Of a DNA stretch of 64,000 bases, positions 30,398 through 48,786 are shown in pieces. The stretch spans positions 1,801,501 through 1,865,500 of the forward strand of contig NZ_CP108581.1 of the NCBI RefSeq assembly GCF_036010665.1. Direction: 5' to 3'. This DNA is from Microbispora sp. NBC_01189 (GTDB lineage Bacteria; Actinomycetota; Actinomycetes; Streptosporangiales; Streptosporangiaceae). Every line of letters begins with the position of its first letter. The stretch's first letter is position 1. The notes under the pieces are model-generated. The model had not been told where the DNA came from, did no database searches, and saw only the letters and a list, made by a program, of their open reading frames with translations. Position numbers and translations under genes: made by a program.

Positions 30398-31149
30398 TGG
30401 GATACAAGGCGAAGTTCCGCGTCTGGCGCGGTGAGGGCGGCGAGGGCAGGCTTGAGGACTTCACCGTCGAGGTGAACGAGGGCGAGGTCGTCCTCGACGT
30501 CATCCACCGGCTCCAGGCCACCCAGACGCCCGACCTCGCGGTCCGCTGGAACTGCAAGGCCGGCAAGTGCGGCTCGTGCTCGATGGAGATCAACGGCAGG
30601 CCGCGCCTGGGCTGCATGACCCGGATGTCCACCTTCGAGGAGGACGAGACCATCACGGTCACGCCGCTGCGGACGTTCCCGGTCATCAAGGACCTGGTGA
30701 CGGACGTGTCGTTCAACTACCAGAAGGCCCGTGAGGTCCCGTCGTTCACGCCGCCGGCCGACGTGAAGCCGGGCGAATACCGCATGCAGCAGATCGACGT
30801 CGAGCGGTCGCAGGAGTTCCGCAAGTGCATCGAGTGCTTCATGTGCCAGAACGTCTGTCACGTGATCCGCGACCACGAGGAGAACAAGCCGAACTTCTCC
30901 GGCCCGCGCTACTTCATCCGGATCGCCGAACTCGACATGCACCCGTACGACGTGGCGGATCGCAAGGAGCCGGCGCAGGACGAGCACGGCCTCGGCTACT
31001 GCAACATCACCAAGTGCTGCACCGAGGTCTGTCCCGAGCACATCAAGATCACTGACAACGCGATCATCCCGATGAAGGAGCGCGTGGTCGACCGGAAGTA
31101 CGACCCGCTGGTCTGGCTGGGCTCGAAGATCTTCAAGCGCCAGCGCTGA
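30397..31149 (+). CDS. sdhB: Succinate dehydrogenase iron-sulfur subunit, Sdh1 type
   Basis: A 250-residue electron-transfer subunit. The [2Fe-2S] ligands are in CKAGKCGSCSMEI with a later CMTRM. The C-terminal clusters are bound by CIECFMCQNVCHV and CNITKCCTEVCPEHI. It starts at ATG 30397, sharing one base with the sdhA stop. A strong stem-loop 12 bp after its stop ends the operon. With 27674-30397 it forms a second full complex, the type that in mycobacteria is used for succinate oxidation during normal aerobic growth (knowledge of family, not shown here). Confidence 0.94.
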   Translation: MGYKAKFRVWRGEGGEGRLEDFTVEVNEGEVVLDVIHRLQATQTPDLAVRWNCKAGKCGSCSMEINGRPRLGCMTRMSTFEEDETITVTPLRTFPVIKDLVTDVSFNYQKAREVPSFTPPADVKPGEYRMQQIDVERSQEFRKCIECFMCQNVCHVIRDHEENKPNFSGPRYFIRIAELDMHPYDVADRKEPAQDEHGLGYCNITKCCTEVCPEHIKITDNAIIPMKERVVDRKYDPLVWLGSKIFKRQR

Positions 31150-31235: not shown

Positions 31236-32231
31236 CTACGGCCGGGGCTGGGCGTCGGGGGCCTCGTCGGGCACGCCGCCCTGCTGCGCCGGCGCCTGCC
31301 CCTGCGCCTGTGCTGCGGGGTCCGCGGCCGGGTAGCCGTACGGCTGGGCGTACCCGTACGGCACGGCATAGCCGTAGGGCTGCTGCGGATAGGGCATGGC
31401 GTACTGCTGGGGGTAGGGCTGCTGGGGGTAGGGCTGCTGCGCGTACGGCTGGACCGGCACGAAGCCGACCATCGGGGCGTAGCCGGAACCCGCCGGATAG
31501 GCGGCCGGCGTCTCCGGCGCGACCGGCATGGCGGCGACCGGGCCACCCCGCCGTACGGCGGCGGCGTGGGCCATCCGCCGGAGCCTGCCCTCGAAGATCA
31601 GCCAGGCGATCAGCGCGATGCCGAGCAGCACGCCGGCGGGGATCGCGAGCCGGTGGGCCAGGGACGCCTTGTCGTACTCGGGCGAGGCGTTGCGGATCTC
31701 GTACGGCACCGTGTCGGGCGCGGGCTCCTCGAACGACGCGGCCGCGGTGGGAGTCTGGGGGGTCTCCGGCGTCGTGGCCGGCGGCAGGCTCACCTGCCCC
31801 TCGCTCTCCGGGGTGGGGGTGGTGGACGGGCCGTCGGCCCCGGTGGGAACGTCGGTCGTCGAGGGGAACTGCTCCGTGGTCGCGGGAGGCTGCTGGCCCT
31901 GCTGGCCCTGCTCGCCCTGCTGTCCGCCGGTCGACGAGGGCGGGGTGGTGGCGTGGGTCGGCGTGGGCTTGGTGGTGGTGTGCTTGGGCGTCGGGGTGAC
32001 GGTGATGGTCTTCGTCACCACCGGCTCGGCGGTCGGGCTGGGCGAGACCGGCGGCGTCTGCGTGACGGTGACCGTGACGACGTCACACTCGTCGCCCTGA
32101 GTGGGGTCGCACGGCTTCACCGGGTCGGCGGTCGCGCCGAGCACCGGGCTGATGACCACGACCGCCAGCGTGGCGATTGCCAGCGACGCGGCGGCCGAGG
32201 ACGCGGCCCTGATGTATGCGCGTCCGATCAC
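31236..32231 (-). CDS. Proline/threonine-rich exported membrane protein
   Basis: A 331-residue protein of no recognised family. The N-terminal hydrophobic segment (about 10-33, ending near ATA) looks like a signal peptide. A long Thr/Pro/Ser-rich extracellular region follows (about 40-175, with repeated TPTP and QQG units and two nearby Cys), then one transmembrane helix (LAIPAGVLLGIALIAWLIF, about 192-210), and a cytoplasmic tail built of PYPQQPY/PYGYA repeats. GTG 32231 is fixed by AGGAGG six bases upstream. It looks like a wall-spanning surface protein with a Pro/Tyr-rich cytoplasmic tail; its function is unknown. Confidence 0.8.
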   Translation of the reverse strand: MIGRAYIRAASSAAASLAIATLAVVVISPVLGATADPVKPCDPTQGDECDVVTVTVTQTPPVSPSPTAEPVVTKTITVTPTPKHTTTKPTPTHATTPPSSTGGQQGEQGQQGQQPPATTEQFPSTTDVPTGADGPSTTPTPESEGQVSLPPATTPETPQTPTAAASFEEPAPDTVPYEIRNASPEYDKASLAHRLAIPAGVLLGIALIAWLIFEGRLRRMAHAAAVRRGGPVAAMPVAPETPAAYPAGSGYAPMVGFVPVQPYAQQPYPQQPYPQQYAMPYPQQPYGYAVPYGYAQPYGYPAADPAAQAQGQAPAQQGGVPDEAPDAQPRP

Positions 32232-32323: not shown

Positions 32324-32368
32324 CTATCCGGAAAACAGCTATCCGGGCAACAGCTATCCGGGCAACAG
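32324..32368. repeat. 15-bp tandem repeat that multiplies a stop codon
   Basis: CTATCCGGGCAACAG occurs three times (first copy with GAAAACAG). On the coding strand each unit reads CTGTTGCCCGGATAG, the last codons and stop of the NUDIX gene, so the stop exists in triplicate in frame. Confidence 0.92.
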
Positions 32369-32743
32369 CGTCTCGATCGCGGCGACCACCGGCAGATCCG
32401 CGGGCAGCCAGGCGACGTCGTACAGCTCGTGCGGCTCCAGCCAGCGCAACGCGAGGTGCTCGATCGGCCGGGGGACGCCCGCGGCGAGCCCGGCGAGCCA
32501 GACGTGCATCACATGGCCGTTCGGCAACGGCCAGTCCCCGCCGACGCGACGCGAGACCACGATGTCGACGCCGAGCTCCTCGGCGCACTCGCGCACCAGC
32601 GCGGCGCGCTCGTCCTCCCCTGGGTCGACCTTCCCGCCGGGGAACTCCCAGCCGCCGCGCAGTTCCGGCGGAGCGGACCGCTGGGCGGCCAGGAGCCGGC
32701 CGTCCGCCACGATCGCGGCGCCCACGACCAGCCTGCCGGTCAC
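32354..32743 (-). CDS. NUDIX hydrolase (MutT-like)
   Basis: A 129-residue pyrophosphohydrolase with a complete NUDIX box: GGKVDPGEDERAALVRECAEELG (residue region about 38-60, Gx5Ex7REUxEExGU). Size and the GGWEFPGGK entry suggest the MutT/8-oxo-dGTP or CTP pyrophosphohydrolase type that cleans nucleotide pools. GTG 32743 overlaps the stop of the transglycosylase/NlpC gene (GTGA), which ties its expression to the secretion-like operon although no functional link is obvious. Confidence 0.88.
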   Translation of the reverse strand: MTGRLVVGAAIVADGRLLAAQRSAPPELRGGWEFPGGKVDPGEDERAALVRECAEELGVDIVVSRRVGGDWPLPNGHVMHVWLAGLAAGVPRPIEHLALRWLEPHELYDVAWLPADLPVVAAIETLLPG

Positions 32744-33885
32744 GTCTGGGCCCGCTTGAGCTGCGCCAGCACGGTGTCGTTGCGGAGCGGCCGGGTGAAG
32801 CCGACGATGTTCGGCCGGTCGCGGTAGGTCGTCACCTTGATCGGCCCGCAGAGGGTGCACCTCGCCTCGATCATCGTTCCGGGCGAGACGACCATCCCGA
32901 CGTGCCCGGGGTTGTCCTTGGACGTGCCGGGCCCGGCGTCGAAGAAGACGAGGTCGCCGGGCTGCTCCTCGCCCTGTTCGATCCGCGTGCCGAAGGGCCA
33001 CTGGCCGAAGGTCGTCCGCGGGATGCTCAGACCGGCGTTCCGGTAGGCCATGTAGATGATCCCCGAGCAGTCGAAGGCGTCCGGGCCGGTGCCACCCCAT
33101 CGGTACGGCTTGCCCCGCTGCGCCAGAGCGTATTGGAGGATCTGGCGGACGACGTCGTCGGGGGCGCTGTCGACGAACCCCGAGTCGCAGGCGGGGTCGG
33201 CCTCGGCGGGCAGGCCGATCTCCCCCGTCGCGGCGTAGCGCTTGGCGATCTCCAGGACCTGGTCGACGTACCAGGTGGCGCGGTTGTAGACGAAGATCGC
33301 CTTTCTGAGGTCGTCGGGGGCGCCGTTGCGCTTGAGCATCTTGGCCGCGCCGAGGATGGCGTCCGCCGGGTTGTAGACATCGCCGAAGCCGTCCCCGTCG
33401 CCGTCCGAGGCGTAGCCGTTGACGCCCGGCTCGATCTTCATCTTGGCCTGGCCGCCCCAGGTGCTGATGAGGAACTGCATCGGGCCCGCGGCGCCTGCGT
33501 AGTTGGTGCCGCTGCGCACGCCCGGCAGCGAGGACCGGCCGTGGTTCGTCTCCCGCTTGCCGATGGCGGCCAGCACGTTCCACTGCACGCCGATCTGCTT
33601 GCCGAACTTCTTGTAGAGCTCCAGGTAGTCCTCGGGAATGTCGCTCCGCGCCGTCTTGGAGAGATCCGTCCCGGGCGTCCCGGCGCCGGGTCCCGTGGCG
33701 GCCTCGGCGCAGTTCCCGGACACGCCGCCGCCGAGGAGCATCGACGGGCTCGGGGTCATGAGGATGATCGAGGCGAAGAGCGTGATCGGCACGATCACGA
33801 CGAGGGCCACGGCGATCAACCGCCAGGACCGCCCTCCCGAGGCGAGCCGGCGGACTGCCGAGGTGCCGCGCGGCGGGACGGTCAC
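32740..33885 (-). CDS. Lytic transglycosylase plus NlpC/P60 peptidoglycan hydrolase (TcpG/VirB1-like)
   Basis: A 381-residue exported wall hydrolase with an N-terminal membrane anchor (about 22-45). A transglycosylase-like domain follows (about 80-220), with catalytic Glu in GKRETNHGR and the AGPMQFL and YNPADAI motifs. A C-terminal NlpC/P60 endopeptidase has its nucleophile Cys in FDCSGIIY, His in PGHVGMV and PYRWGG before it. This two-enzyme design is what Gram-positive conjugation systems use to open the wall (TcpG, CwlT). GTG 33885 overlaps the upstream stop by 4 bases. It belongs to the secretion-like operon. Confidence 0.92.
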   Translation of the reverse strand: MTVPPRGTSAVRRLASGGRSWRLIAVALVVIVPITLFASIILMTPSPSMLLGGGVSGNCAEAATGPGAGTPGTDLSKTARSDIPEDYLELYKKFGKQIGVQWNVLAAIGKRETNHGRSSLPGVRSGTNYAGAAGPMQFLISTWGGQAKMKIEPGVNGYASDGDGDGFGDVYNPADAILGAAKMLKRNGAPDDLRKAIFVYNRATWYVDQVLEIAKRYAATGEIGLPAEADPACDSGFVDSAPDDVVRQILQYALAQRGKPYRWGGTGPDAFDCSGIIYMAYRNAGLSIPRTTFGQWPFGTRIEQGEEQPGDLVFFDAGPGTSKDNPGHVGMVVSPGTMIEARCTLCGPIKVTTYRDRPNIVGFTRPLRNDTVLAQLKRAQT

Positions 33886-34544
33886 GGCGAGGTGTCCCCG
33901 TCCTGGCCGGAGTCGGCCAGTTGCAGGTCGTACACCCGCCAGTCGGTGCCCGACTTGACGACCGTCACGGCGAACCGCTCGGGCACGTCCTTCTGGCCGC
34001 TCCGGTCCGTCACGTGCCGGGTGGAGTCGACGACGAACACCACCTGGGCGCCCGTCATGTCGCGGATCGACGCCACCTTCGCCGCCCCCTTCGAGACCAC
34101 CTGGTCGGCCTCGTTCTGGTCCGCCACGGCGGGATCGGTGACGGTCCTGGTGAGCTGGGCCGCGAACTCGGTGGTCGCGAACGCCGTGAGCCGCTCGGCG
34201 CGGGCCGCCGCCTCCTCGTCGTACGAGAAGGTGCCGTACGCCTCGGTGAAGCGGCGGGCGAGGTCGGCCGCCGCGCCGATCTCCTCCCTCGACAGCGGCA
34301 GGTACGCGTACACGTCGAAGGCGCCGGGAGTGGTGGCGACCGGGCCGGGCTCCCGCGCCCCCGTGGGCGCCCGTCCCGTGGCCGCCCGCCCGGTGGCCGC
34401 CGACCGCCCCACCGACTGCTGTCTCGCCTGCTCGTCGCCGTCCGAGGGCGGGCTCATGGTGAGGTAGACGCCGACGGCGGCGAGCACCACCACGGCCGCC
34501 CCGAAGGCGAGCCCCTTGCCCCGGTCGCTGTTCCGGCTTCTCAT
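33882..34544 (-). CDS. Small bitopic protein of the T4SS-like operon (VirB8-like)
   Basis: A 220-residue protein with a short cytoplasmic start, one transmembrane helix (about 12-32), a linker with ATGRA repeats and an extracellular alpha/beta domain (about 75-215). The outline matches NTF2-like VirB8/TcpC C-terminal domains, but no diagnostic motif is visible, so the family call is tentative. ATG 34544 lies 19 bp after the stop of the VirB6-like gene. The stop overlaps the transglycosylase start (GTGA). It probably docks the wall hydrolase to the membrane complex (inference from position). Confidence 0.65.
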   Translation of the reverse strand: MRSRNSDRGKGLAFGAAVVVLAAVGVYLTMSPPSDGDEQARQQSVGRSAATGRAATGRAPTGAREPGPVATTPGAFDVYAYLPLSREEIGAAADLARRFTEAYGTFSYDEEAAARAERLTAFATTEFAAQLTRTVTDPAVADQNEADQVVSKGAAKVASIRDMTGAQVVFVVDSTRHVTDRSGQKDVPERFAVTVVKSGTDWRVYDLQLADSGQDGDTSP

Positions 34545-34563
34545 GGCCTCGTCGGTGGTCCCG

Positions 34564-37158
34564 TCACTCGCCGGAGTCGCGGTCGGCCGGCTTGGTCCAG
34601 AACGGGGCCGGGGCGTCACCCTCGCGGCGCGTGCTCTCCCCCCGGCTCGGCAGCCAGAGCGGGGGCGGCTCGGCCGGACGCGAACGCCCGGCGGACGACC
34701 CCGAGTCACGCGAGTCACGTGGCGGCGGCGCCGGACGGGAGCGGCCCGTGTCACCCCGGCGGGACGAGCCGCCGAACAGGCCGCCCGAGCCTCCCGAACC
34801 ACCCGAGCGGCCCGAGCCGCCGCCGAACAGGCTCCCCGGCCCGCCACCTGAGGAGCCACGCGGCGAGCGGCCCGAGCCGCCGCCGAAGATGCTGCCCGAC
34901 CCGCCACCTGAGCCGCCAGAGCCGCCGGAGCCGCGCGGGGACGACGGCCGGGAGGCCCAGCCGCCGGACCGGCCGCTGAACCAGCCGCCACCTGACCCGC
35001 CACCGGCCCCGCCCGTGGGAGCTGCGGAGGGAGGCGCGGAGGGAGCGGAGGAGGCGGAGACGCCGGTGACCGCGGCTCCCGTCACCCGCCGCGGCGGCGC
35101 GGACGGAGCCGAGGGCCCGGACGGCCGTGACGGCGCCGCCCCGCCTCCCGTGACCCGTCCAGGTGTCCGTCCCTGCGCAGGGCCGCTCGCAGAGCCGTTG
35201 GCCGGGCCCCGGGCCCCGGCCGGCCGTACGCCGGACAGGTTCAGCGGCGGGGCGGTGCCGGGACGTACGGCGGCGACCCCGGCCTTGCGGCGGCCCGCCT
35301 GCCCGTCGGCGTCGAGCGGCGCGGGTTGTGCCCCCGCGCGCGCGCCGGCCTGGGCCGGGACGTTGCCCGCGCCCTCCTCTCCGCGCACCCGGCCCTGGGC
35401 CACGGAGGAGGCGGCAGCGGCGGCGGCGCCCGCGCCGCTCGCCATCGCGGCGGCGCCGATGACGGGCTCGGCCTTGCGCAGGCCCCACCGGCCCGCCCGG
35501 GCCGCCGCGACCGGCGGCAGCACGGAGGCGGCCCGGGAGAGGGTCGGCGCGGTCGCGGCCTCGCCGAGCATCCGCGTGGCGAGCGTGTGCCCGTCCATCG
35601 AGGCGAACAGATGCTGGAACGGCCGGCGGTAGAAGAAGACCGCGATCGTCATCAGCGCCATGAAGAGGATCTGCATGCCCCATGGCAGGTTGGTCGAGAT
35701 GATCAGCGCGTAGCCGTACACGAGAATGCCCAGCACCAGCGCGAGCACGGCCTGGCGGAGCAGCGTGCCGACCAGCATCTCCAGCCACCGCATGGCGATG
35801 ATCCGTCCCGAGCCGGGATGCACGCCGATCAGCAGGAAGACCGGCGCGAGCATCAGCAGCAGCAGGAAGCCGACCTTCAGCACGAGCAGCGACACCGCGA
35901 CGAGGAAGATGAGCAGACCGGCGACCATCGCCGCGATGAACGCCCCGATGGCGATGCCGAGGCGGCTGGTCCAGTCCTTGCCCTGGAAGAGGAAGAACAC
36001 CGGAGTGCTCTGCAGCGGCTTGGCGACCTCCTCCTCGAACCGCTGCTGGTGCGAGTCGGAGGCCGGAGTCTGCTTGGCGGCCAGTTCCTGGGCGTCGATC
36101 GCCTGGAGGTCGAGGACCTTCTGGCCGAGGCCCTTCACGAGACCGGCGTTGGGGTCGGCCGTGGCGAACTCACCCATCAGCCACGGCTTGCAGACGAGGA
36201 TCGACCACAGCGCGTCGGCGTTCTGGGCCACGCCGGGGGTGCCCTGCCGGCCGTAGCCGCCCGCCGTGGGCTCGCCCGGCACCTCGCCCGGCTCGGTCGC
36301 CTTCATGGGCAGACAGGACGCACCGCCCGCTCCCGGCAGGCCGGAGAACGCCGAGTTGACGATCTCGCCGGTCTTGTCGGTCACGGTCTTGCCGAGGCCG
36401 GTGAAGTCTCCCGGGCGGCTGAAGAACCAGATCGCGACCGTGACCGCGAGGACCATCCAGACGACGCCCTCGGTGGTCGTCGTCGCGCGTTTGCGGATGA
36501 GGCCGTACCAGGCCAGCCAGATCGCGCCGAGGATGACGACCGGCCGCAGGTACGGCCAGTACATCGCGTCGGCGAGGTTCTTGACGATGTCGTCGGCGAC
36601 TTCCTTGATGGGCTGCAGCGGGCCCTCGGTGGCCGCCGCCTGGTACGTGCTGATCGTCAGCCGGTCGACGGCCTTGGCCCAGGAGAAGACCGTGTTGGCC
36701 CACGCGTTTCCGAGGACGGCGGTGACGTCGGAGCACCCGAGGCCGTAGGTGTGCCAGAACTGCCCGGCCATGCCGTACCGCTCGTAGTTGGTGAGCGGCT
36801 CCTTCGGCGCCGTGCCCCCCGCCGTGCCCCCCGCCGAGCCGTCCGCAGCACCCCCGGCACCGTCCGTCGCGCCGGTGGGCGGCTTGCCGGTGGTGGCGGC
36901 CGTCGCGTCCTCCGGCGCCGGGGGCCGCACCAGGCCGTCGACGCCGCCGCCCACGATCTCGGGGGCGAGTTTGGGCGACAGCTCGCAGATCCCGTCGGCG
37001 CTCGCCGTGCCGGCCGGGAAGACCAGCGGCAGCGTCACGAACGCCGCGAAGGCGACGAACAGCAGGGCGAGGCTCCGCCGGAGCCTCCCGCCGCGTCTGC
37101 CGCCCTCTTTTGCGCCCTCTCTGGTGCGGCCTCTGGGACCGTTCCTGCGCACGCTCAC
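34564..37158 (-). CDS. Polytopic channel protein of T4SS type (VirB6/TrbL/TcpH-like)
   Basis: An 864-residue membrane protein: signal-like first helix (about 28-52), a long external region with one Cys near each end, then helices at about 205-222, 233-247, 402-450 and 465-520 in the pattern of TrbL/VirB6 channel subunits. The final 280 residues are a disordered cytoplasmic tail rich in Gly, Ser, Arg and Pro with GGGSGRS/LFGG repeats. TcpH of pCW3 has a comparable layout. GTG 37158 overlaps the VirB4-like stop (GTGA). It is the presumed translocation pore of the system. Confidence 0.82.
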   Translation of the reverse strand: MSVRRNGPRGRTREGAKEGGRRGGRLRRSLALLFVAFAAFVTLPLVFPAGTASADGICELSPKLAPEIVGGGVDGLVRPPAPEDATAATTGKPPTGATDGAGGAADGSAGGTAGGTAPKEPLTNYERYGMAGQFWHTYGLGCSDVTAVLGNAWANTVFSWAKAVDRLTISTYQAAATEGPLQPIKEVADDIVKNLADAMYWPYLRPVVILGAIWLAWYGLIRKRATTTTEGVVWMVLAVTVAIWFFSRPGDFTGLGKTVTDKTGEIVNSAFSGLPGAGGASCLPMKATEPGEVPGEPTAGGYGRQGTPGVAQNADALWSILVCKPWLMGEFATADPNAGLVKGLGQKVLDLQAIDAQELAAKQTPASDSHQQRFEEEVAKPLQSTPVFFLFQGKDWTSRLGIAIGAFIAAMVAGLLIFLVAVSLLVLKVGFLLLLMLAPVFLLIGVHPGSGRIIAMRWLEMLVGTLLRQAVLALVLGILVYGYALIISTNLPWGMQILFMALMTIAVFFYRRPFQHLFASMDGHTLATRMLGEAATAPTLSRAASVLPPVAAARAGRWGLRKAEPVIGAAAMASGAGAAAAAASSVAQGRVRGEEGAGNVPAQAGARAGAQPAPLDADGQAGRRKAGVAAVRPGTAPPLNLSGVRPAGARGPANGSASGPAQGRTPGRVTGGGAAPSRPSGPSAPSAPPRRVTGAAVTGVSASSAPSAPPSAAPTGGAGGGSGGGWFSGRSGGWASRPSSPRGSGGSGGSGGGSGSIFGGGSGRSPRGSSGGGPGSLFGGGSGRSGGSGGSGGLFGGSSRRGDTGRSRPAPPPRDSRDSGSSAGRSRPAEPPPLWLPSRGESTRREGDAPAPFWTKPADRDSGE

Positions 37159-39632
37159 GATCGCACCTCCTGCGCGACCCCCGACCGACCGGAGCCCCCG
37201 TCAAAGAGATCATGCATGTTCTCGCCGGGTTTGTCGTGTGTCGGATTGGTGTCAAGCCAGCGCAGCAGCTCTTCGGAGATAAGGTCCACCCCGATACGGC
37301 CGGCCCGGCCGTCCAGATCCCGGAAGACGCACTCCCCGTTGCCCAGGGAGCGCAACACGCCCTTGTGATCCTCCGACGGGTCCACGCCGAGAAGCTCCAT
37401 CACGTGCTCGACCTCCACCCGCTCGGTGGACCGGAACGCGAACACCGACGATAGGCAGTTGGTGACCTGCTCGTTGAGCAGGTCACCGGCGTTCTGCGAG
37501 ACCAGGACGAGCGCCGTGTTGCGTGAACGGCCCATCCGGGAGACCTCGGGCACGAGCTTGGCGCCCTCCGGGGTGGACGTGATCGCCCACGCCTCGTCGA
37601 GGAAGATGGCCTTCGGCGTGCGCCGGTCGAGCCCGTTCATCAGGCGGCGGGCGAACTGCGACACCAGGTAGAGCAGCGCCACCGACAGCCGCTGCTCGTA
37701 GGAGTAGTCGTCCCTGACCGTCGCCACGTCGGGAAGCGTGAGGCCGCCGAGCGTGAACACCGTCGTCCAGCCCGCGGTGTCGATCTGCTCGCCGCCGTAG
37801 GCGTCGAAGCAGAGCCGGGCGAGGTGCATCTCCGACATCGAGCGCAGCACGGCCCCGAGGTTCTTGGACGCGGGGTCGGACGACTGCTCCAGGTGGCCGA
37901 CCACCTTCCCCAGTGAGGGGTCGGGCTCGTTCGACACCGCCGCGACCGCCTGGATCATGGCGGACTCGCGCTCCTCCGACATCCTCGGCAGCAGCAGCCG
38001 CAGGGTCTCGGTGGCCATCGTCTTCTTCGCCGCGATGTCGTCGCCGAACGCGAACGGGTCGAGCAGGCCCGGCGCGGCCGACCCCAGCGGGATGACCCTC
38101 GCCTTGCGGCCCCGCGCCCGCAGCAGCCGTACGAGCGACTCGGCGTCGCCCTTGGGGTCGATCACCGCGATCGTGACGCCGCGCAGCGCCATCTGGTAGA
38201 TCAGCAGCAGCGCCAGCGTGGTCTTGCCGCCGCCGGGCTCACCGGTGATCGCGATGGCCGTCGGGCGGTTGCGCGCCGCCGCGACGAGCGGGTCGAAGTG
38301 GACGATGCTGCGCGCCCGGCCCAGGGTTTCCCCGACGTACGGCCCGATCCACCCGGCGTTCGACTCGTCGACCCGGTCGCCGATCTCGACGGTCGCGGTG
38401 GCCATGCCGCCCGCGATCGTCCGCAGCGGCTGCCGCTGGGCGTACGCGTTGACCCGCAGCCGCTCCCCCGGCAGCGCCTCGCAGAACAGCGAGAACTGGT
38501 CGCCGGTGGAGTTGACGACGTCGACGCCGAGGTCGCGGAAGTGCTCGACGATAGCCTCGACCCGCTGGACGCACATCTCCTCGGTCGGCGCGCTGACGCT
38601 CAGCCGGTGCCAGCCGTAGACGAAGGGCAGCCGCTCCTTGGTGATGCCGTGCTCCAGCATGCGGGCGGCGTCGATCTGCTCGGCCAGCGCCAGCGGGGCC
38701 TCGGCTCCCGCCTCGCGGATGTGGATGTCCATGTCACGGGCGTGGGCGAGCTTGCGCGCCACGTCCTTGCTGGCCCGTACGGGGGGGATCAGCCGCATCC
38801 GGCTGGAGATCTCGACGGGGAAGGGAAGCTGGTCGGCGAAGTGCAGCCACGGCTCGCCGTCGGGAAACGGCATGAGATCGGGGAACCGGGCGAACGACAG
38901 GTGCGCGACGTAGGCCTCGCCGGCCGGCTGCTGGATGCGCAGCAGCGACCTGCCGTTGTGGATCTGACCCTCGACCAGCGCCTCGATCTCGCCCTTGCCC
39001 CATCTGCGGCGGGGCGACGCCGAGGGCATCGGCTCGCCGAGACCGGCCGCCGCGGCGTGCTGGAACAACCAGGCGATCTCGGTCGAGGTGGCGTGGCGGG
39101 CGTAGAGCGCGCTGGAGCCCAGCGCCCGGCCGAGCCGCTCGGCGGCCTCGGTCCACCGGGCGATCTCCCGGTCCGGCACGTGGTCGTCCTCGATGCCCAG
39201 CTTCTTCTCACCGCGCTGGTAGAAGCCGAACATCTGGGCCAGGACGCCGGTGCCGAGCTGGGCGCCGCGCGGGCCGAGCCGTACGCCGAGGTAGACCTCC
39301 TTGCTCCAGAAGTCCTTGGCCCAGACGTGGCGGTACAGCTCCTCCAGGTACTCCCGCCACCCGGGGCCCTCGTCGGAGGTCGCGTTGAGGGCCATCGCCC
39401 ACTCCGCGGCGGGATACGCCCGGTGCGCGACCCGAAGGTGCACCTCGGCGTCGGGCATCCTGATCGCGGCCAGCGCGATCGTGACGTTGGTGGCCAGCGC
39501 CTCGCGCTCCTCGGGGGTGAGGAACTCGTAGCTCACCGTCGGCAGGCGGAAGTAGGCCCAGGCCGCCGAGTCGGTGAGCAGAACCCGATCATCGAAGTAC
39601 CGCACCGCCAGGCGACTGCGCGCCCTGCTCAT
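37155..39632 (-). CDS. VirB4/TcpF-like ATPase of the T4SS-like operon
   Basis: An 825-residue cytoplasmic AAA-type ATPase. The N-terminal half carries the VirB4-type domain (about 1-420). The motor domain has Walker A TGEPGGGKTT (about residue 465), a following IDPKGDAE strand, Walker B KAIFLDEAW (about residue 680) and a QNAGDLL arginine-finger-side motif. Both nucleotide motifs look active, in contrast to the MinD-like domain upstream. ATG 39632 overlaps the stop of a 30-codon ORF. It energises assembly or substrate transfer in conjugation-type systems. Confidence 0.9.
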   Translation of the reverse strand: MSRARSRLAVRYFDDRVLLTDSAAWAYFRLPTVSYEFLTPEEREALATNVTIALAAIRMPDAEVHLRVAHRAYPAAEWAMALNATSDEGPGWREYLEELYRHVWAKDFWSKEVYLGVRLGPRGAQLGTGVLAQMFGFYQRGEKKLGIEDDHVPDREIARWTEAAERLGRALGSSALYARHATSTEIAWLFQHAAAAGLGEPMPSASPRRRWGKGEIEALVEGQIHNGRSLLRIQQPAGEAYVAHLSFARFPDLMPFPDGEPWLHFADQLPFPVEISSRMRLIPPVRASKDVARKLAHARDMDIHIREAGAEAPLALAEQIDAARMLEHGITKERLPFVYGWHRLSVSAPTEEMCVQRVEAIVEHFRDLGVDVVNSTGDQFSLFCEALPGERLRVNAYAQRQPLRTIAGGMATATVEIGDRVDESNAGWIGPYVGETLGRARSIVHFDPLVAAARNRPTAIAITGEPGGGKTTLALLLIYQMALRGVTIAVIDPKGDAESLVRLLRARGRKARVIPLGSAAPGLLDPFAFGDDIAAKKTMATETLRLLLPRMSEERESAMIQAVAAVSNEPDPSLGKVVGHLEQSSDPASKNLGAVLRSMSEMHLARLCFDAYGGEQIDTAGWTTVFTLGGLTLPDVATVRDDYSYEQRLSVALLYLVSQFARRLMNGLDRRTPKAIFLDEAWAITSTPEGAKLVPEVSRMGRSRNTALVLVSQNAGDLLNEQVTNCLSSVFAFRSTERVEVEHVMELLGVDPSEDHKGVLRSLGNGECVFRDLDGRAGRIGVDLISEELLRWLDTNPTHDKPGENMHDLFDGGSGRSGVAQEVRS

Positions 39633-39721
39633 CGACCTTTCACCAGCTCTCCTGATCGCACGTCCCGGGACCCGTCGGACCCGCGCGACCGCCCTCGCCG
39701 CGGCCCGCGTCCGGCGTTCAT
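39629..39721 (-). CDS. 30-residue basic ORF linking two T4SS genes
   Basis: The ATG shares ATGA with the stop of the TcpE-MinD gene and its TGA shares ATGA with the VirB4 start, so it fills the 85-bp gap perfectly. The product, beginning MNAGRGPRRGRSRG, has eight Arg and one Lys in 30 residues and no hydrophobic segment. It could be a real small protein or only a device that carries ribosomes from one gene to the next. Family unknown. Confidence 0.5.
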   Translation of the reverse strand: MNAGRGPRRGRSRGSDGSRDVRSGELVKGR

Positions 39722-42700
39722 CTCGCCACCTCCTGCTTGGCCTGGGCCGCCGCCAGGCCGTTCACGATCACTCCCGCGAGCGCGACGTACGCCCTGCGGC
39801 CGCCTGTCCGGAGATGGGTGATGTCGACCGGTCCCGGCCGTCCGGGCGCCAGCTCGTCCTCCCAGGGGATGCGGACGATCGCCCGGCACCGGCCGCTGGC
39901 GACCGCCTCCGCCTGCTCCACGTCGGGGAGGCTGCGGCGGCTCACTCCGTTGATCACCATGACCGCCCGCCGCCGCAGGTCGGAGCAGCCGTGGCCGTCG
40001 AGCCACTCGTACGTCATGGCGACCGCCTCGGAGGCGTCCTCGCTCGCGGGGGCGACCAGCACGAGCTGGTCGGCGTACGGCAGGAGGCGGGCGGCCAGCG
40101 CGGCCGCGGGGTCGATGACGGTCAGGCGATAGTGCCGGTCGAGCGCGGCGAGCGTCCGGCGCCAGTCGGCCAGGAACGCGCGTTCCGCGAGGCGCTGGGT
40201 CACCCGGTCGTCGGTGTCCGCTCCGACGACCTCCAGCCCCGACTCGCAGCGCGTCGTGTAGGACCGCATGCCGAGGTAGCCGCTCACCTCCTCGGAGCCC
40301 TCCAGCAGCGAGCTCAGCGTCTCCGGCGACTCGGCGGCGATCCTCGTCGTCAGCGTGCCCTCGCCGGTGTTCGCGTCGAGCGCGAGCACCCGGTCGTCTC
40401 GGTATCGGGCCAGCGTGTGGCCCAGCATTAAGGCCGTGGTCGTCTGCCCGGCGCCGCCCGTGCAGCCGAGCACCATGATCCGCCTGCTGCTGGTCAGCGG
40501 GACACGGGCGCGCGCCTCGTCGACCTCCATGCCGTCCGTACGGCTGCCGCCCACGACCACCTGGGCCAGGCGCCGCCAGCCGCCGGAGGGGTCGCGGCCC
40601 ACCACCGCCTCGACCCGGCGCAGCCTCGGCGGCTCCTCGTGCCCCGGACGGCCGGTCGCGGGCCTGGCGGCCGGCAGCGCGGGACGGGCGCCGGACGGGG
40701 CCGCGTGGCGGGGCACCGCCGGGACCGTCCGGATCGGCATTCCGGTGGGACCCGCCGGAGGCGTGACGCTCCCCTTGCCCGCCGGACCGGGCGATCCCGC
40801 CGCGTCACCGGGCTGGGCATCCCCGGTCTGGACGCCGGGCGGCTGCGGCTCGGAGCGGTGCGCGGCGGGGGGCTGTGAATAGGGCGGCCTGATCCTGATC
40901 GGCTGCGCGGCCGGGGCAGGCACCTCACGGGCCCGGTCCGCGTCCGCGTCGGGGTTGGCCTTGGGGTTGGGGTTGTCCTTGGGGTTGGCCTTGTCCTTGG
41001 GGTTGGCGTTGGGGTTGGGGTTGTCCTTGGGGTTGGCCTTGTCCTTGGGGTTGGCGTTGGGGTTGGGGTTGTCCTTGGGGTTGGCGTTGGCGTCCGAGGG
41101 ACCGGCAGCCGCCGTCGGGCCGATCCGGACCGGCCCGATGACCGTCACGCCCGCGGGCTCGGCGTTCTCCGGGACGTCCCCGGTGTCCCCGATGTCATTG
41201 GCGTCCGCGATGTCCGCGGGCCGATCGGGCGAGGTCTGGGCATGGACCGTCGCGGGAATGACCTCTCCCCACGCGCCGCCCTCCTCACGGGGTCGCACCA
41301 GCCGAGGCGGCCGCCCCCTGCGGTGCTGCGCGAGGACATCGGCGTCGTCGGGCCGCGTGGGGGCTTCACTCCTCCCGCCGCCGCCCTGGTCCCGCTCGTC
41401 GTGGTCCCGCTCATCCTGGTTGCGCTCGTCGTCCGCCCGCCCGGCGGCGGCTTCGGAGGCAGCCTGGGGAGCGCCGGGCTCGGCTCCGCCAGGCGCGGTC
41501 GCGTCCTGTCGCGCGGCCTCGTCGCGGTCGGAAGCTGTCCTCGGCGCGAATTCCTGGACGGCTTCCTGGACGGCTTCCGGGGCGGTGTCTGCGGTGGTTT
41601 CCAGAACGGCCGGTGCGGCCGGGAGGTCCGCGGCCCGCTCGTCATCCGCATCGTGTCGATCCGGGGTCGAGAAGGCCGGGGCGGCGGGCCGTACGGCGCG
41701 GGGTTCGGAGGACGCGGCGAGCCTGCGCAGGCGGCGCAGCGTCTCCGTGCCGATGGGCGGCACGGGATGGGTCTCGGAAGAGGACTCGGCCCGGGGCTCG
41801 GAATGCGTCTCCGAGTTGGCCTCGGAATGGGCCTCGGAGCGGGCCTCGGAGTGGGCCTCGGAGTGGGCCTCGGAGTGGGCCTCGGAGGCGGCGGTGGGGC
41901 TCGCGCCGGGGGCCCGCCTGTCCGAGCCCCGGTCCCGCGGCTCCGCGTCGTGGCCCGTGCTGCCAAGGCCCGTGCTGCTGTGGACCGTGCTGTCGTGGCC
42001 CGTGCTGCCTAGGACTGTGCTGCTGTGGGCAGCGCCGTCGTCCCGTCCGGCGGGTGGCCCGTCGGTGCGACGGTCCCGCACGGGATCGTCCGTGCGGGCG
42101 GGGCTCACCGGCGCGGGTGGGTGCGGCAGGGAGTAGACCCGCTCACCCGTGACGTCGCCCGTCGTGTCACGCTTGGCGGCGGCCGCGGCGCCGCTCCAGG
42201 GGAGCGGGGCGGGGCTGCCGGTGGTGACCGGCACGGCCGCGGCGGCAGCGGCGGCCACCGCGGGGCGCACGACGCGGGACGGGTCGAGCGGCGGCCCGCC
42301 CGCCCGCGCCGCGGCGGCCCGTGCGGCGCCTGCGGGGTGCGCGGTCTCCGGACCGGCGGCGACCTTGACCGAGATCGGGCGACGCGCCCTGGCTCTGACC
42401 CCGCGGGAGACGGCTCCGCCGTTGCCGGTGGGGGCGGGCGGGGTGGCCCGCCAGACGCGCCCGGTGAGGGCGATCTCGTCCGGCTCGTCGAACGGAGCCA
42501 TCCGGCACCAGGTCTTGGGCTCGGCCATGTAGCGAACCTGCGACTGGAGAAGCTCGGTGAGACGCTTGTTCTCGATGACCGGACGGGTGGACAGCCAGGT
42601 GAGCACGCCGGGAGGAACCAGGTAGACGACGTGCCACGGCGCCTCCAGCGGCAGCCTCACCAGGAGGAGGAAGAGCCACCAGGGTACGGAGACACCCACG

Positions 42701-42807
42701 AACACACCGATCCAGACGACTGGAAGCGGCATCGGCAGCCGTAGGTCGTACAGCTTGTACAGCCGCTTCTCGATACGCCAGATATTGGTATATGTGGGCA
42801 GATCCAC
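39718..42807 (-). CDS. TcpE/VirB3-like membrane domain fused to a MinD/ParA-like domain with defective P-loop
   Basis: A 1029-residue fusion. The N-terminus (about 1-110) has MDLPTYTNIWRIEKRLYKLYD and two adjacent helices, typical of TcpE/VirB3-like conjugation proteins. Residues about 150-740 are disordered, with EAHSEAHSE and NANPKDKANPKDNPNP repeats. The C-terminal 255 residues have the MinD/ParA fold pattern, with LALDANTGEG and a Walker B-like TVIDPAAAL. The P-loop reads CTGGAGQTTT (residues 782-791): both the signature Lys and the catalytic Lys of KGGxGKTT are replaced (Thr, and Gln788). ATP hydrolysis is doubtful. The C-terminal domain may act as a scaffold that positions the secretion apparatus. 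It overlaps the 30-codon ORF downstream. Confidence 0.85.
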   Translation of the reverse strand: MDLPTYTNIWRIEKRLYKLYDLRLPMPLPVVWIGVFVGVSVPWWLFLLLVRLPLEAPWHVVYLVPPGVLTWLSTRPVIENKRLTELLQSQVRYMAEPKTWCRMAPFDEPDEIALTGRVWRATPPAPTGNGGAVSRGVRARARRPISVKVAAGPETAHPAGAARAAAARAGGPPLDPSRVVRPAVAAAAAAAVPVTTGSPAPLPWSGAAAAAKRDTTGDVTGERVYSLPHPPAPVSPARTDDPVRDRRTDGPPAGRDDGAAHSSTVLGSTGHDSTVHSSTGLGSTGHDAEPRDRGSDRRAPGASPTAASEAHSEAHSEAHSEARSEAHSEANSETHSEPRAESSSETHPVPPIGTETLRRLRRLAASSEPRAVRPAAPAFSTPDRHDADDERAADLPAAPAVLETTADTAPEAVQEAVQEFAPRTASDRDEAARQDATAPGGAEPGAPQAASEAAAGRADDERNQDERDHDERDQGGGGRSEAPTRPDDADVLAQHRRGRPPRLVRPREEGGAWGEVIPATVHAQTSPDRPADIADANDIGDTGDVPENAEPAGVTVIGPVRIGPTAAAGPSDANANPKDNPNPNANPKDKANPKDNPNPNANPKDKANPKDNPNPKANPDADADRAREVPAPAAQPIRIRPPYSQPPAAHRSEPQPPGVQTGDAQPGDAAGSPGPAGKGSVTPPAGPTGMPIRTVPAVPRHAAPSGARPALPAARPATGRPGHEEPPRLRRVEAVVGRDPSGGWRRLAQVVVGGSRTDGMEVDEARARVPLTSSRRIMVLGCTGGAGQTTTALMLGHTLARYRDDRVLALDANTGEGTLTTRIAAESPETLSSLLEGSEEVSGYLGMRSYTTRCESGLEVVGADTDDRVTQRLAERAFLADWRRTLAALDRHYRLTVIDPAAALAARLLPYADQLVLVAPASEDASEAVAMTYEWLDGHGCSDLRRRAVMVINGVSRRSLPDVEQAEAVASGRCRAIVRIPWEDELAPGRPGPVDITHLRTGGRRAYVALAGVIVNGLAAAQAKQEVAR
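40951..41093. repeat. 48-bp tandem repeat, G-quadruplex prone
   Basis: A 48-bp unit of TTGGGGTTGGGGTTGTCC-type sequence is repeated about 2.6 times. It encodes a 16-residue NANPKD/KANPKD unit on the minus strand, while the plus strand carries closely spaced GGGG runs. Confidence 0.93.
41795..41895. repeat. 12-bp tandem repeat encoding EAHS units
   Basis: GCCTCGGAGTGG and near copies run in tandem in the disordered linker of the TcpE-MinD fusion, encoding repeated Glu-Ala-His/Arg/Asn-Ser. Confidence 0.92.
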
Positions 42808-42829
42808 CCCGAACCTCCTCTCCGCCCGA

Positions 42830-43120
42830 TCACTTGATCCCGAGCGCGCCCGCGATGGCCTTCGCTGTCACCTCGATGATGTTGGGAACATAGAAGATCA
42901 CACCGATCGCGATCGCCAGGATGATGAACTGCACGAACCTGGTGATCTCGCGGGTGAAGAGGAAGAAGATCGCCACGACGGAGACGACCGCGAGGAACAG
43001 CGGGGCGAAGAACTTCCTGAGGAAATCAGCGAGACCTTCGGTGTTGATGCCCGTCACCGGCGCCGGTGACGACGGTGCGGCCAGATCAAGGAAATGATCC
43101 GCGATGGTCTTCACAATCAA
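42830..43120 (-). CDS. Small two-helix membrane protein (TcpD/VirB2-like position)
   Basis: A 96-residue protein with two transmembrane segments (about 36-56 and 62-85), a short polar N-terminus and an amphipathic end. Gene order after TcpC and before TcpE corresponds to TcpD of pCW3, and size and topology also fit a pilin-like VirB2; sequence alone does not distinguish these. The start is TTG 43120: GGGAGGG lies 6 bases upstream, while the next candidate GTG (43114) is too far from it. The TcpE-MinD gene starts 22 bp downstream. Confidence 0.75.
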   Translation of the reverse strand: MIVKTIADHFLDLAAPSSPAPVTGINTEGLADFLRKFFAPLFLAVVSVVAIFFLFTREITRFVQFIILAIAIGVIFYVPNIIEVTAKAIAGALGIK

Positions 43121-43170
43121 CTCTCGCCCTCCCGGGGGTGTGGATCAGCGATGTCTGTACCGGGCATGCG

Positions 43171-44172
43171 CTACCCCACGGACCGGTTCGCACCCTGGAT
43201 GTCCTTGACGAACCACTTGCCGCCCTGCTTCTCAACCGTCAGCTCGTAGGCCTGCTCGAGGCCCCCCGGCTCGCCGGCCGGGTCCTGGGACGGACTCGGC
43301 GCCGCCGCGTCCCCGGACGCCACTGCCCACACCACCACCGCGGTCACCTTCCTGCTGTCGGCACCACCTGGTGGCACGAACATCTTCTTGAGCTCTGCGA
43401 AGGTGAACCTGCCGTTGAAGCCCTCGATCGTCACGCCGTTCGCGACGTATCGCTGCAGATCCGCCTGGTTACCCGCCGCGTACGCCTTGAAGAAGCCTTC
43501 GAGCGGGGGACGCAGTTCGGCCTCGGTGGCGGAGTCGCTGTCGGGCTCGGGAAGCTGGGGCAGACCGGCCGGGCCGGGGTCGGGCAGCAGGGCGGGCTGC
43601 GCCGAGACAACGAACCTGCCGCCGTCGTAGTAGACCGGCACGGACAGCAGGCCACGGGAGTCCCCGGACTGGTACGACACGCTCACCCGGGCATTGCGGT
43701 CGTCGATCACGTCGATCCCCGCGTACTGGAAGGCTCCGGCGGACATGCGCCCGTAGCCGTTCCAGCCGAACTGCGCGTCGGCGCCCTCCGGCAGGAACGC
43801 CTTCAGCCGTTCCGCACGCTGCTGGGGATTGGCCGCGTCGTAGTTGAGGTAAACCGCCGCGAACTGGTCCGCGAAGGCCGCCGCCCGCGTCGTCGGGAAG
43901 GCGGACACGGCCGTCTCGGCCGGAGCGGTGCCGGTGTCCTGCATGGAGCGCTCGAACAGGGCCCGGACGCCGTTGACCACGATCACGATGATCAGAGCCC
44001 AGAGGATCGCCCGCCCGGCCCAGACGAGCCAGCGGCCTCCGCCGCCGCTCCATCCCCTGCGCCGGGGGGCGGTGCCGTGAGGGGCTGCCGACCGGTCGAA
44101 GCCCTCCGGAGGGTACAGCTCAGGGTCGCCAGCGATCCGAGGATCCTGCTGGACGTCTGACCTGCGAGCCAT
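43171..44172 (-). CDS. TcpC/VirB8-like conjugation-type assembly protein
   Basis: A 333-residue bitopic protein with a cytoplasmic N-terminus, a transmembrane helix (about 49-70) and two consecutive NTF2-like domains outside the membrane (about 90-205 and 220-330), the arrangement known from TcpC and Orf13 of Gram-positive conjugative elements. YELTVEKQGGKWFVKDI near the C-terminus is typical of the second domain. ATG 44172 is preferred over GTG 44175 by the spacing from GGAGG. It is the first gene of the minus-strand T4SS-like operon, 50 bp ahead of the small two-helix gene. Confidence 0.87.
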   Translation of the reverse strand: MARRSDVQQDPRIAGDPELYPPEGFDRSAAPHGTAPRRRGWSGGGGRWLVWAGRAILWALIIVIVVNGVRALFERSMQDTGTAPAETAVSAFPTTRAAAFADQFAAVYLNYDAANPQQRAERLKAFLPEGADAQFGWNGYGRMSAGAFQYAGIDVIDDRNARVSVSYQSGDSRGLLSVPVYYDGGRFVVSAQPALLPDPGPAGLPQLPEPDSDSATEAELRPPLEGFFKAYAAGNQADLQRYVANGVTIEGFNGRFTFAELKKMFVPPGGADSRKVTAVVVWAVASGDAAAPSPSQDPAGEPGGLEQAYELTVEKQGGKWFVKDIQGANRSVG

Positions 44173-44548
44173 CACGCCTCCGCTCGCGCCGATCCATCCG
44201 GCTGGCGCGGTTTCCTCTTGCTCTCGTTCCGGTTAGCCGCATTGAAGTATTCACCCTAGCGGTCTAGCCAATTCTTCCAGGTAAGCCACGCCCATGGTGC
44301 AAGCATCGCCGCGAGCGAGCAAACCAGGTCTACATCGCGTTGCGGGGCGCCAAGCCTATCCACTCTGCGGAAAAGTGCGTTATGCCTGGCCAGCGGGGCT
44401 GGCGATTACCTAACCGCCATCTATTGGTGTCTTCACAGCCTGGAGAGATGGCGGTGCGGACGTACCGCTCGGAGCCGGCCCCCGCACGCGAGGGTCCCGC
44501 ACGCGGCACGTGCGGGACCCTCTCCGATCGGTCGTGCGCGCTCTCCCG
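44173..44548. other. 376-bp intergenic region ahead of the T4SS-like operon
   Basis: No gene-like frame is seen. The region is distinctly less GC-rich between about 44215 and 44450 than its surroundings and should hold the promoter of the minus-strand operon. A terminator for the upstream secreted-protein gene sits at 44491-44521. Confidence 0.6.
44491..44521. terminator. Terminator hairpin after the secreted-protein gene
   Basis: A perfect 13-bp stem (44491-44503 with 44509-44521) with a 5-base loop. It separates the secreted protein gene from the T4SS-like operon, which must therefore have its own promoter. Confidence 0.88.
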
Positions 44549-47290: not shown

Positions 47291-47746
47291 GTGACGGCTG
47301 AGGTCCTGCATATCGGCGAGGTGGCCAGGCGCACCGGCCTGAGCGTGCACACGCTGCGGCTGTACGAGCGTGCAGGGCTGCTCACGGGCGAGGTGCGGCG
47401 TGACGAGGCCGGGCGGCGGGTCTACAGCGCCTGGGATGTCGAGTGGCTGGGCAACTGCGTGAAGTTCCGGGCCTCCGGCATGCCGCTGGCCACGATCAGC
47501 CGGCTGGCCCGGCTCGTGCGCGAGGGCACCGGCAACGAAGCGGAACGGCTCGAGGTGCTGCGCGAGCACCAGAGCCGTGTCACCGAGCGGCTCGCACAGC
47601 TGCGGGACTGCCTGGATCTCATCGACGGCAAGGTGTCCGCCTACGAGCGGCACCTCGCGGCCGACGGCACCGGAGAGCCCTGGCAACGGCAGCCGGATCA
47701 GACGTTGAAGCGGAACTCCACGACGTCGCCGTCGCGCATGACGTAG
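47291..47746 (+). CDS. MerR-family transcriptional regulator
   Basis: A 151-residue regulator. The N-terminal MerR helix-turn-helix begins VLHIGEVARRTGLSVHTLRLYERAGLL and is followed by a dimerisation helix (about 80-125). No Cys cluster is present, so it senses an organic ligand rather than a metal. GTG 47291 is the family-like start and lies 6 bases after a -10-like TACGAT. It is divergent from the SDR gene. Its last 49 bases overlap the 3' end of ychF on the other strand, so the C-terminal tail (TLKRNSTTSPSRMT) is antisense to conserved YchF sequence. Confidence 0.9.
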   Translation: MTAEVLHIGEVARRTGLSVHTLRLYERAGLLTGEVRRDEAGRRVYSAWDVEWLGNCVKFRASGMPLATISRLARLVREGTGNEAERLEVLREHQSRVTERLAQLRDCLDLIDGKVSAYERHLAADGTGEPWQRQPDQTLKRNSTTSPSRMT

Positions 47747-48786
47747 TCCTTGCCCTCGATGCGGGCCTTGCCGGCGGCCCTGGCGGCGGTCATCGAGCCC
47801 GCCTCGACCAGGTCGCCGAACGAGATGACCTCGGCCTTGATGAACCCGCGCTGGAAGTCGGTGTGGATGACCCCGGCGGCCTCGGGGGCGGTGGCGCCCC
47901 TGCGGATCGTCCAGGCCCGCGCCTCCTTGGGCCCGGCCGTCAGGTAGGTCTGCAGGCCCAGCGTCTCGAACCCGACCCGGGCGAGCTGGGCGAGACCCGA
48001 CTCCTCCTGGCCGACGGACTGCAGCAGCTCCAGCGCCTCGTCGTCGGGCAGCTCCACCAGCTCCGACTCGATCTTGGCGTCGAGGAACACGGCCTCGGCC
48101 GGGGCCACCAGCGCCGAGAGCTTGGCCCGCAGGTCGTCGTCGGTCAGCTCGTCCGCGTCGAGGTTGAAGACGTACAGGAACGGCTTGGCCGTGAGGAGGT
48201 GCAGCTCACGCAGGTCGGCGAGGTCGATGCCGGCGCCCCTGCCCCCGGCGTACAGGGTCGTGCCGGTGTCGAGGAGCTTCGCCGCGGCCTCGGCCGCCTC
48301 CAGCAGGACCTTGCGGTCCTTGTTGGTGCGCGCCTCCTTCTGCAGGCGGGGCACCGCCTTCTCGATCGTCTGCAGGTCGGCGAGGATCAGTTCGGTGTTG
48401 ATGGTCTCGATGTCGCGCCGCGGCGACACCTCGCCGTCCACGTGGGTCACGTCGGGGTCGGAGAAGACCCGGATCACCTGGCAGATCGCGTCGGTCTCGC
48501 GGATGTTGGCGAGGAACTGGTTGCCCCGGCCCTGCCCCTCGGAGGCGCCCTTCACCAGTCCGGCGATGTCGACGAACTCCACCTTGGCGGGCAGGATGCG
48601 GGCGGAGTTGAAGATCTCCCCCAGCGTGTCCAGCCGCGCGTCCGGGACGCCGACGATGCCGACGTTCGGCTCGATCGTGGCGAACGGGTAGTTGGCCGCC
48701 AGGGCGTTCCCGCTCTTGGTCAGCGCGTTGAAAAGCGTGGACTTACCGACGTTGGGAAGGCCGACGATGCCGATGCTCAGGCTCAC
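47698..48786 (-). CDS. ychF: Redox-regulated ATPase/GTPase YchF (OLA1-like)
   Basis: A 362-residue Obg-family P-loop protein, the standard YchF length, that prefers ATP and associates with ribosomes. G1 is GLPNVGKST at the N-terminus, G3 is DIAGLVKGAS, and NLDADE replaces the usual NKxD, as is typical for YchF. The C-terminal TGS domain ends GDVVEFRFNV. GTG 48786 was chosen because YchF starts MSLSIGIVG. Its neighbours DUF6542 and ispH are conserved around Rv1112 in M. tuberculosis. Confidence 0.95.
   Translation of the reverse strand: MSLSIGIVGLPNVGKSTLFNALTKSGNALAANYPFATIEPNVGIVGVPDARLDTLGEIFNSARILPAKVEFVDIAGLVKGASEGQGRGNQFLANIRETDAICQVIRVFSDPDVTHVDGEVSPRRDIETINTELILADLQTIEKAVPRLQKEARTNKDRKVLLEAAEAAAKLLDTGTTLYAGGRGAGIDLADLRELHLLTAKPFLYVFNLDADELTDDDLRAKLSALVAPAEAVFLDAKIESELVELPDDEALELLQSVGQEESGLAQLARVGFETLGLQTYLTAGPKEARAWTIRRGATAPEAAGVIHTDFQRGFIKAEVISFGDLVEAGSMTAARAAGKARIEGKDYVMRDGDVVEFRFNV

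Follow-up and report, generated by a model that had tools for sequence, protein, structure and literature searches.

We examined a window of 64,000 nucleotides from the chromosome of Microbispora sp. NBC_01189 (C1:1801501-1865500 of a genome assembled as a single contig of 7,371,534 bases) and identified on its minus strand a cluster of eight tightly coupled genes, running from 44172 down to 32354, that carries the parts of a Gram-positive conjugation-type type IV secretion system (T4SS). A first-pass annotation of the same sequence had recognized the coupling and the shared strand, although it counted nine genes. The first gene, tcpC (43171..44172), encodes a VirB8-like wall-complex protein of 333 aa (PF12642, 8.1e-18) with one N-terminal hydrophobic segment in the hydropathy profile. 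It is followed by a gene for a small membrane protein of 94-96 aa (42830..43120; start TTG at 43120 or GTG at 43114) with two such segments, which occupies a TcpD/VirB2-like position and is like these proteins by position, not by homology. The third gene (39718..42807) encodes a fusion of an N-terminal TcpE (VirB3-like) part (PF12648, 6.4e-22), a linker and a C-terminal ParA/MinD fold. Next come virB4 (37155..39632), for a TcpF-like ATPase of 825 aa (AAA_10, 9.7e-68; TcpF, 1.1e-69); a virB6-like gene (34564..37158), whose membrane protein product (PF04610, 2e-7; NF046089, 7.4e-21) carries a Gly/Ala/Ser/Pro tail of ~300 aa; a second virB8-like gene (33882..34544), for a protein of 220 aa with a membrane helix and one NTF2-like domain; a gene for a VirB1/TcpG-type wall hydrolase (32740..33885) combining SLT (SLT_2) and NlpC/P60 domains; and a NUDIX hydrolase gene (32354..32743; PF00293, 7e-18) that ends the coupled run. 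Consecutive frames overlap by 4 bp at three junctions (virB4/virB6, second virB8/hydrolase and hydrolase/NUDIX). The order of the Gram-positive conjugation core proposed in the first pass was borne out, with TcpC, TcpE, VirB4 and VirB6 above the cut-off and the wall hydrolase beside them.

Walker A (GEPGGGKTT) and Walker B (DEAW) motifs are present in all 116 VirB4 copies, and the DCSG motif in 72 of 73 hydrolase copies, the remaining one being without both DCSG and HVG. The second VirB8-like protein was assigned to the VirB8 fold with VIA-align, a re-alignment of Foldseek's best 1000 chains that we applied to the structure models of this protein and of the ParA/MinD domain; profile comparison of the two VirB8s returned only a 35-column match (probability 41). 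From these assignments, VirB4, TcpE and VirB6 are predicted to form the translocon and TcpC and the second VirB8 the wall complex, accompanied by the wall hydrolase. The same core (TcpC, TcpE, VirB4/TcpF, VirB6 and a two-domain wall hydrolase) is described for the TcpE/TcpF class of systems, such as pCW3, ICEBs1, Tn916 and ICESt3 (PMC12857230). The Microbispora cluster differs from that class in residing in a genome that none of the tested relaxase and VirD4 models matched, in the fusion of TcpE to a degenerate ParA/MinD domain, in its second VirB8 and in the family-wide distribution of its core. Two VirB8-like proteins are not unusual, for pCF10 has PrgD and PrgL (PMC12857230). The NUDIX enzyme, also singled out as an oddity of the operon, is present in 60 of the 63 complete loci described below but in just one of the five loci from other genera that cover this position, and we therefore regard it as accessory rather than as an integral part.

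The truly odd component is the TcpE fusion, more so than the earlier remark on a MinD-like domain conveyed, since every copy that could be read has a degenerate P-loop. The linker between the two parts spans ~645 aa and is rich in Ala, Pro, Arg and Gly, and 67 of 71 complete reading frames encode both the TcpE and the ParA/MinD end (the four that do not show both are from L011, L051, L128 and L134; L, G and f numbers are our handles for loci, genomes and families). The C-terminal domain (residues 771-1014; 39766..40497, minus strand) has the ParA/MinD (SIMIBI) fold and is without the deviant Walker A signature and P-loop lysines of ParA/MinD ATPases. Its P-loop reads LGCTGGAGQTT in the window, and both lysines are lost in all 107 readable copies, the first being replaced by T (106 copies) or A (one copy) and the second by Q (all 107). 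These copies come from a survey of 113 frames, six of them without a readable P-loop, at loci sampled from ~345 family genomes, and do not stand for independent genomes because the same genome can enter more than once among the loci (L083 being the window itself). Asp67 and Asp155 are invariant in 30 aligned rows of the domain. ParA/MinD-type proteins that work with a T4SS have been described, VirC1 directing its DNA substrate and gonococcal ParA requiring its Walker A box; both are separate proteins (PMC8716806), unlike the lysine-free domain tethered to TcpE. We found no account of a TcpE-MinD pairing in the titles and abstracts searched, most subscription papers being outside the search.

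The cluster lies among housekeeping-type genes (ychF, ispH, xseA, xseB, glpX and sdhAB), in agreement with the first pass. Its observation that relaxase and VirD4 are missing could be extended from the window to the whole genome: PF03432 and PF08751, the two relaxase families searched, and the VirD4 model PF02534 had no matches in the single contig. PF08751 and PF02534 are suitable probes, because both match the relaxase and coupling protein of a sister plasmid from Nocardiopsis described below. For FtsK-type (TcpA/TraB) coupling proteins, the search extended to the tested frames of the window, none of which matched an FtsK domain. The window contained no tRNA, and the 50 window frames tested had no integrase match.

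Of 394 genomes drawn from the class, 41 belong to the family, and all 41 responded to the window VirB4 as query with 77-100% identity (99% in the nearest named relatives, Microbispora amethystogenes and M. triticiradicis), the next best matches being 31% identical. TcpE (PF12648) was found in 41 of the 394 genomes, 40 of them in this family and the lone outsider below the cut-off. Within the family, it is present in 324 of 341 genomes (275 of 283 good ones) and in 66 of 68 genera; the 17 genomes without a match are drafts of 80 to 830 contigs, one of which (G131) retains VirB4. The Microbispora genome itself has one match each to TcpE and AAA_10. Gene order was examined at 86 loci, of which 23 without one or more core genes in the covered stretch were excluded from the count, and the 63 loci holding all seven core genes had the same order and strand throughout. 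Upstream on the same strand lies ychF (47698..48786, minus strand in the window; PF06071, 3.5e-38) in 49 of these complete loci, the other 14 not showing it within the covered stretch; it is also upstream in four loci of other family genera (L125, L127, L128 and L130). Beyond the other end, sdhB follows in order and on the opposite strand in 46 of the 63; in the window, sdhA/sdhB (28505..31149, plus strand) were recognized in the family search of the frames. A distribution so nearly complete, at a fixed site, is not the patchy pattern of a mobile element. One family genome (L131, G241:C1:2728500-2748000) has a second VirB4 that is only distantly related; a weak TcpE match immediately precedes it, and it probably belongs to a separate element.

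The cluster genes are under purifying selection, as judged from ratios of nonsynonymous to synonymous substitution rates (dN/dS) well below 1 against three Microbispora relatives. The ratios were lowest for the small membrane protein (0.05-0.09) and VirB4 (0.09-0.13), followed by the hydrolase (~0.20), TcpC (0.24-0.30), VirB6 (0.25-0.34) and the second VirB8 (0.33-0.40), with 0.19-0.45 for NUDIX and 0.42-0.47 for the TcpE fusion including its linker. Further, the VirB4 tree (FastTree, 92 rows) tracks genus membership, as the 26 genus labels can be placed on it with the minimum of 25 changes (58.2 for shuffled labels), although near-copies among the rows favor such clustering. Taken singly, Nonomuraea, Microtetraspora and Planomonospora need two changes each. 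Together with the family-wide synteny and the lack of relaxase and VirD4 model matches, this vertical signal supports the earlier proposal of a resident machine rather than a mobile element.

Conservation also extends into the 120 bp immediately 5' of tcpC (44173..44292, minus strand), where 79 of 120 columns were at least 90% identical across 65 loci, compared with 14 of 120 in the region 5' of the downstream proline-rich gene (58 loci). The sdhA control (87 of 120 columns, 18 loci) was not used as background because its upstream stretch is coding DNA. The core pattern of the element occurs at one site only in the genome. A short reading frame within it was dismissed on visual inspection. We also rejected a structured RNA leader: no Rfam family matches the element, four of five sequences folded no better than their shuffles (z 0.85 to 1.74) and the fifth folded only slightly better (z -0.91, with 37 of 200 shuffles doing as well). 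For these reasons we treat the element as promoter DNA.

Sister clusters were found on plasmids. VirB4 was matched in 828 plasmid records, at 88.5% identity in one, 70-73.5% in three and below 60% in the other 824. The first is a Nonomuraea record of 11.85 Mb, the size of a chromosome, and the three are plasmids of Nocardiopsis. We examined two of these, NZ_CP099838 (VirB4 73.5% identical) and NZ_CP080600 (70%); the third nearly equals the second in length and does not differ from it in VirB4 identity. The two examined plasmids have homologues of TcpC, TcpE, VirB6, the small membrane protein (64% identical over 86 residues), the SLT hydrolase and MinD. In contrast to the chromosomal cluster, their TcpE is free and their MinD is a separate gene that keeps KGGVGKTT where the chromosomal domain has TGGAGQ. 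Both also have an annotated MobF relaxase, a VirD4-type protein and a tyrosine recombinase/integrase, and in the N. exhalans plasmid (NZ_CP099838), the one that was checked against Pfam, TrwC (PF08751, 9.8e-46) and T4SS-DNA_transf (PF02534, 1.2e-15) were matched. PLSDB/MOB-suite types NZ_CP099838 and NZ_CP080600 (L143, L144, L146-L150) as non-mobilizable despite these annotations. A Nonomuraea plasmid, NZ_CP107854 (L145), carries a distant T4SS (VirB4 28.5%) with an FtsK/SpoIIIE gene directly after the C40 peptidase and two ParA genes upstream.

The plasmid clusters show the conjugative state, not decay of the chromosomal cluster. Their free, intact MinD, compared with the fused, degenerate chromosomal one, most simply suggests that a plasmid-like state came first, although modules may have been exchanged. 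The plasmid VirB4s are placed inside the family tree, and starred branches force that placement in both trees. Monophyly of the chromosomal VirB4s is nonetheless not rejected by the approximately unbiased test (cost 0.89 log units, p-AU 0.188), which allows both directions, a plasmid seeding the chromosome or the reverse.

The closest characterized analogue that we found is cmdABCDEF (SCO4126-4131), a chromosomal Streptomyces operon with a VirB4-like ATPase (PMC2782261). In that report, cmd deletion impairs sporulation and chromosome segregation, with aberrant branching, poor septation and early actinorhodin, and anucleate spores reach 8% and 6%, compared with 0.1% (PMC2782261). A mutant screen files cmdBCDEF under DNA transaction genes and describes tgdA, cmdBCDEF and SCO5677 mutants as sharing raised antibiotic output, the genes being involved in the formation of aerial hyphae (PMC6585502). 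We located CmdB by means of the primers published for its mutagenesis, which have 4-6 mismatches in 31 in L113-L115, and found it in 121 of 121 genomes of the genus taken as Streptomyces, since the cmdB primers match there; in the class search, close copies were present in family f18 (39 genomes) and additionally in G007 (78%). The primer pairs named K90A and K404A in PMC2782261 seem to be swapped (L113, 9312-10739), as the K404A pair falls on the Walker A lysine (K90 here) and the K90A pair on a later lysine. A "defective" integrative and conjugative element (ICE) reported near the middle of the chromosome in all 11 Streptomyces strains (PMC9513070) may be a misfiled cmd cluster.

Like the Microbispora cluster, Cmd is a chromosomal VirB4-type membrane operon present genus-wide. 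It differs in its short CmdB (475 aa) and in that TcpE was not found in its genome, G018; the gene after CmdB gave a weak VirD4-type signal (TraG-D_C, 6.6e-4, below the cut-off). Profile alignment paired CmdB with VirB4 (probability 82, E 1.1e-5) and no other components: four other comparisons, made with Cmd profiles of 2-3 sequences and excluding CmdA and CmdF, gave nothing convincing (best probability 11). On this sequence comparison, Cmd and the cluster appear to be analogues fixed in two lineages, not orthologues. A further VirB4-type chromosomal cluster occurs in family f37, in both of whose examined genomes (L119, 4031-12573; L120, 4174-12271) it is adjoined by an M23 peptidase and folP (pterin-binding); its VirB4 is full-length and ~31% identical to that of the window.

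The window's family consists of mycelial bacteria. With moderate confidence, we interpret the cluster as a conjugation-type T4SS of the TcpE/TcpF class that was domesticated early in this family and is now a vertically inherited envelope machine. It looks domesticated because it is fixed family-wide and carries a degenerate, fused MinD, as opposed to its conjugative plasmid sisters. Its DNA-handling parts were seemingly lost and nearly all sequenced relatives retain the machine, so its present role is probably a household one, for example wall-spanning assembly in growing hyphae. Following the roles described for homologues (PMC12857230), VirB4, TcpE and VirB6 would make up the motor and channel in the membrane, with TcpC and the second VirB8 spanning the wall and the hydrolase opening the peptidoglycan. 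The pseudo-ParA arm would hang from TcpE into the cytosol. Its MinD ancestor may have brought a DNA-relaxase complex to the channel, as VirC1 does, and, once the DNA cargo was lost, may have turned into an arm for docking or positioning that no longer responds to ATP. Given the lost lysines and the apparent loss of DNA processing, this arm is most plausibly a passive dock for a cell landmark or a cargo. VirB4 would then power the assembly of a wall-spanning complex or wall-directed protein export while the hydrolase clears the path, most likely at hyphal tips or septa during development, by extrapolation from the non-orthologous Cmd.

Several points weigh against the domestication of such a machine. 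Relaxase and VirD4 at comparable clusters, which the first pass had named as signs of a decayed conjugative element, do occur on the Nocardiopsis plasmids, although they are absent from the Microbispora genome by the models tried and the distribution is not patchy. The VirB4s of the two plasmids group with one sub-clade of the family (18 rows, Shimodaira-Hasegawa-like approximate likelihood ratio test [SH-aLRT] 100; 4 rows, 96). The negative searches cover two relaxase models and the VirD4 model, and FtsK-type coupling proteins in the window frames only, whereas the class-wide absences represent a first look in which few candidates were scored per genome (two for VirB4, four for CmdB). Loss of the P-loop lysines lowers nucleotide binding and does not alone exclude it, and two acidic residues of the domain are invariant. 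Function is deduced from sequence and analogy; the parallel with cmd is one of analogy, CmdB and VirB4 being the only pair that aligns, and no site for a developmental regulator was identified in the 120-bp promoter element.

Among the alternatives, the cluster could be a resident protein-secretion system that sends effectors or toxins to neighboring cells and whose substrates are encoded elsewhere, which we consider possible though on balance unlikely. Relaxase-less T4SSs of other clades are described as often exporting proteins (PMC3158045), and those across the Patescibacteria are, like the cluster, mostly relaxase-less, chromosomal, lineage-wide and of monoderm type, and were judged co-opted (PMC12102498). 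They are, however, described as MPF-FATA-related machines of epibionts (PMC12102498), and the cluster is of the TcpE/TcpF type, actinobacterial and fitted with a pseudo-ParA fusion. Further, the genome has no PF02534 coupling protein, and we found no conserved cargo gene in the cluster: the secreted neighbor of 187 aa (44549-45112) was matched in seven of the 64 named loci covering that flank, six from Microbispora and one from Sphaerimonospora. We give still less weight to a working machine for DNA transfer or release, mobilizing plasmids or the chromosome in trans with an FtsK/TraB-type motor. In its favor, the sister plasmids carry relaxase and VirD4, the Nonomuraea plasmid has an FtsK/SpoIIIE gene adjoining its hydrolase, and actinomycetes use the FtsK-like TraB for transfer of double-stranded DNA (PMC12857230). 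The window frames tested have no FtsK-domain match, however, the MinD partner is degenerate, and cmd deletion is stated, as data not shown, to leave the transfer of an SLP2-derived plasmid in S. coelicolor unaffected (PMC2782261).

Orthology with cmdABCDEF, which would make the function already known, was our first hypothesis and was rejected as very improbable. Each is a chromosomal operon of the VirB4 type that is fixed in one lineage of spore-forming filamentous bacteria, and CmdB does align to VirB4; however, the best match of CmdB in the Microbispora genome, the window VirB4, is 22% identical (E 1.2e-4), the best in the family by E-value (four candidates scored per genome) is 28% identical (9.4e-19), the other components compared are without convincing similarity and G018 has no TcpE match. 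A decayed integrative element or plasmid remnant, which the lack of relaxase and VirD4 model matches in the genome and of integrase matches in the tested window frames might suggest, is scarcely credible for seven core genes that keep their order and share a strand in all 63 complete loci, near-universal in the family, with dN/dS well below 1 and a conserved promoter region.

Other features of the window lie outside these arguments. Downstream of the cluster, a proline-rich membrane protein (31236..32231, minus strand) with two hydrophobic segments and no family above the cut-off is probably not part of the machine. Elsewhere, the window encodes an IS605-type OrfB transposase with a Cas12f1-like TNB domain (59129-60271, plus strand) and a fusion of an antibiotic-biosynthesis-monooxygenase domain to a bacterial globin (45489-46238, minus strand).

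T4SSs without a relaxase are already known; what is new is a core machine at the level of a family with a conserved pseudo-ParA-VirB3 fusion. Few T4SSs have been reported in actinobacteria (PMC3158045), and the titles and abstracts within reach of our search, which left out most subscription papers, held no account of this kind of system in these bacteria. A rule that files any T4SS without relaxase, coupling protein or integrase as a defective ICE (PMC9513070) would misfile the cluster. More speculatively, a conjugation apparatus may have become a developmental organelle of mycelial bacteria, in which a pseudo-ParA permanently tethered to VirB3 would dock the machine on the nucleoid, pole or septum and coordinate wall opening with chromosome placement; Streptomyces (cmd), and possibly a third family (f37), would have undergone a similar conversion separately. 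With this cluster, an entire family has a T4SS in its core genome, and the losses can be read from its conjugative plasmid sisters. Two questions become testable: what role a T4SS takes on once DNA is removed, and by what route a ParA/MinD switch turns into a pseudo-enzyme within a secretion apparatus.

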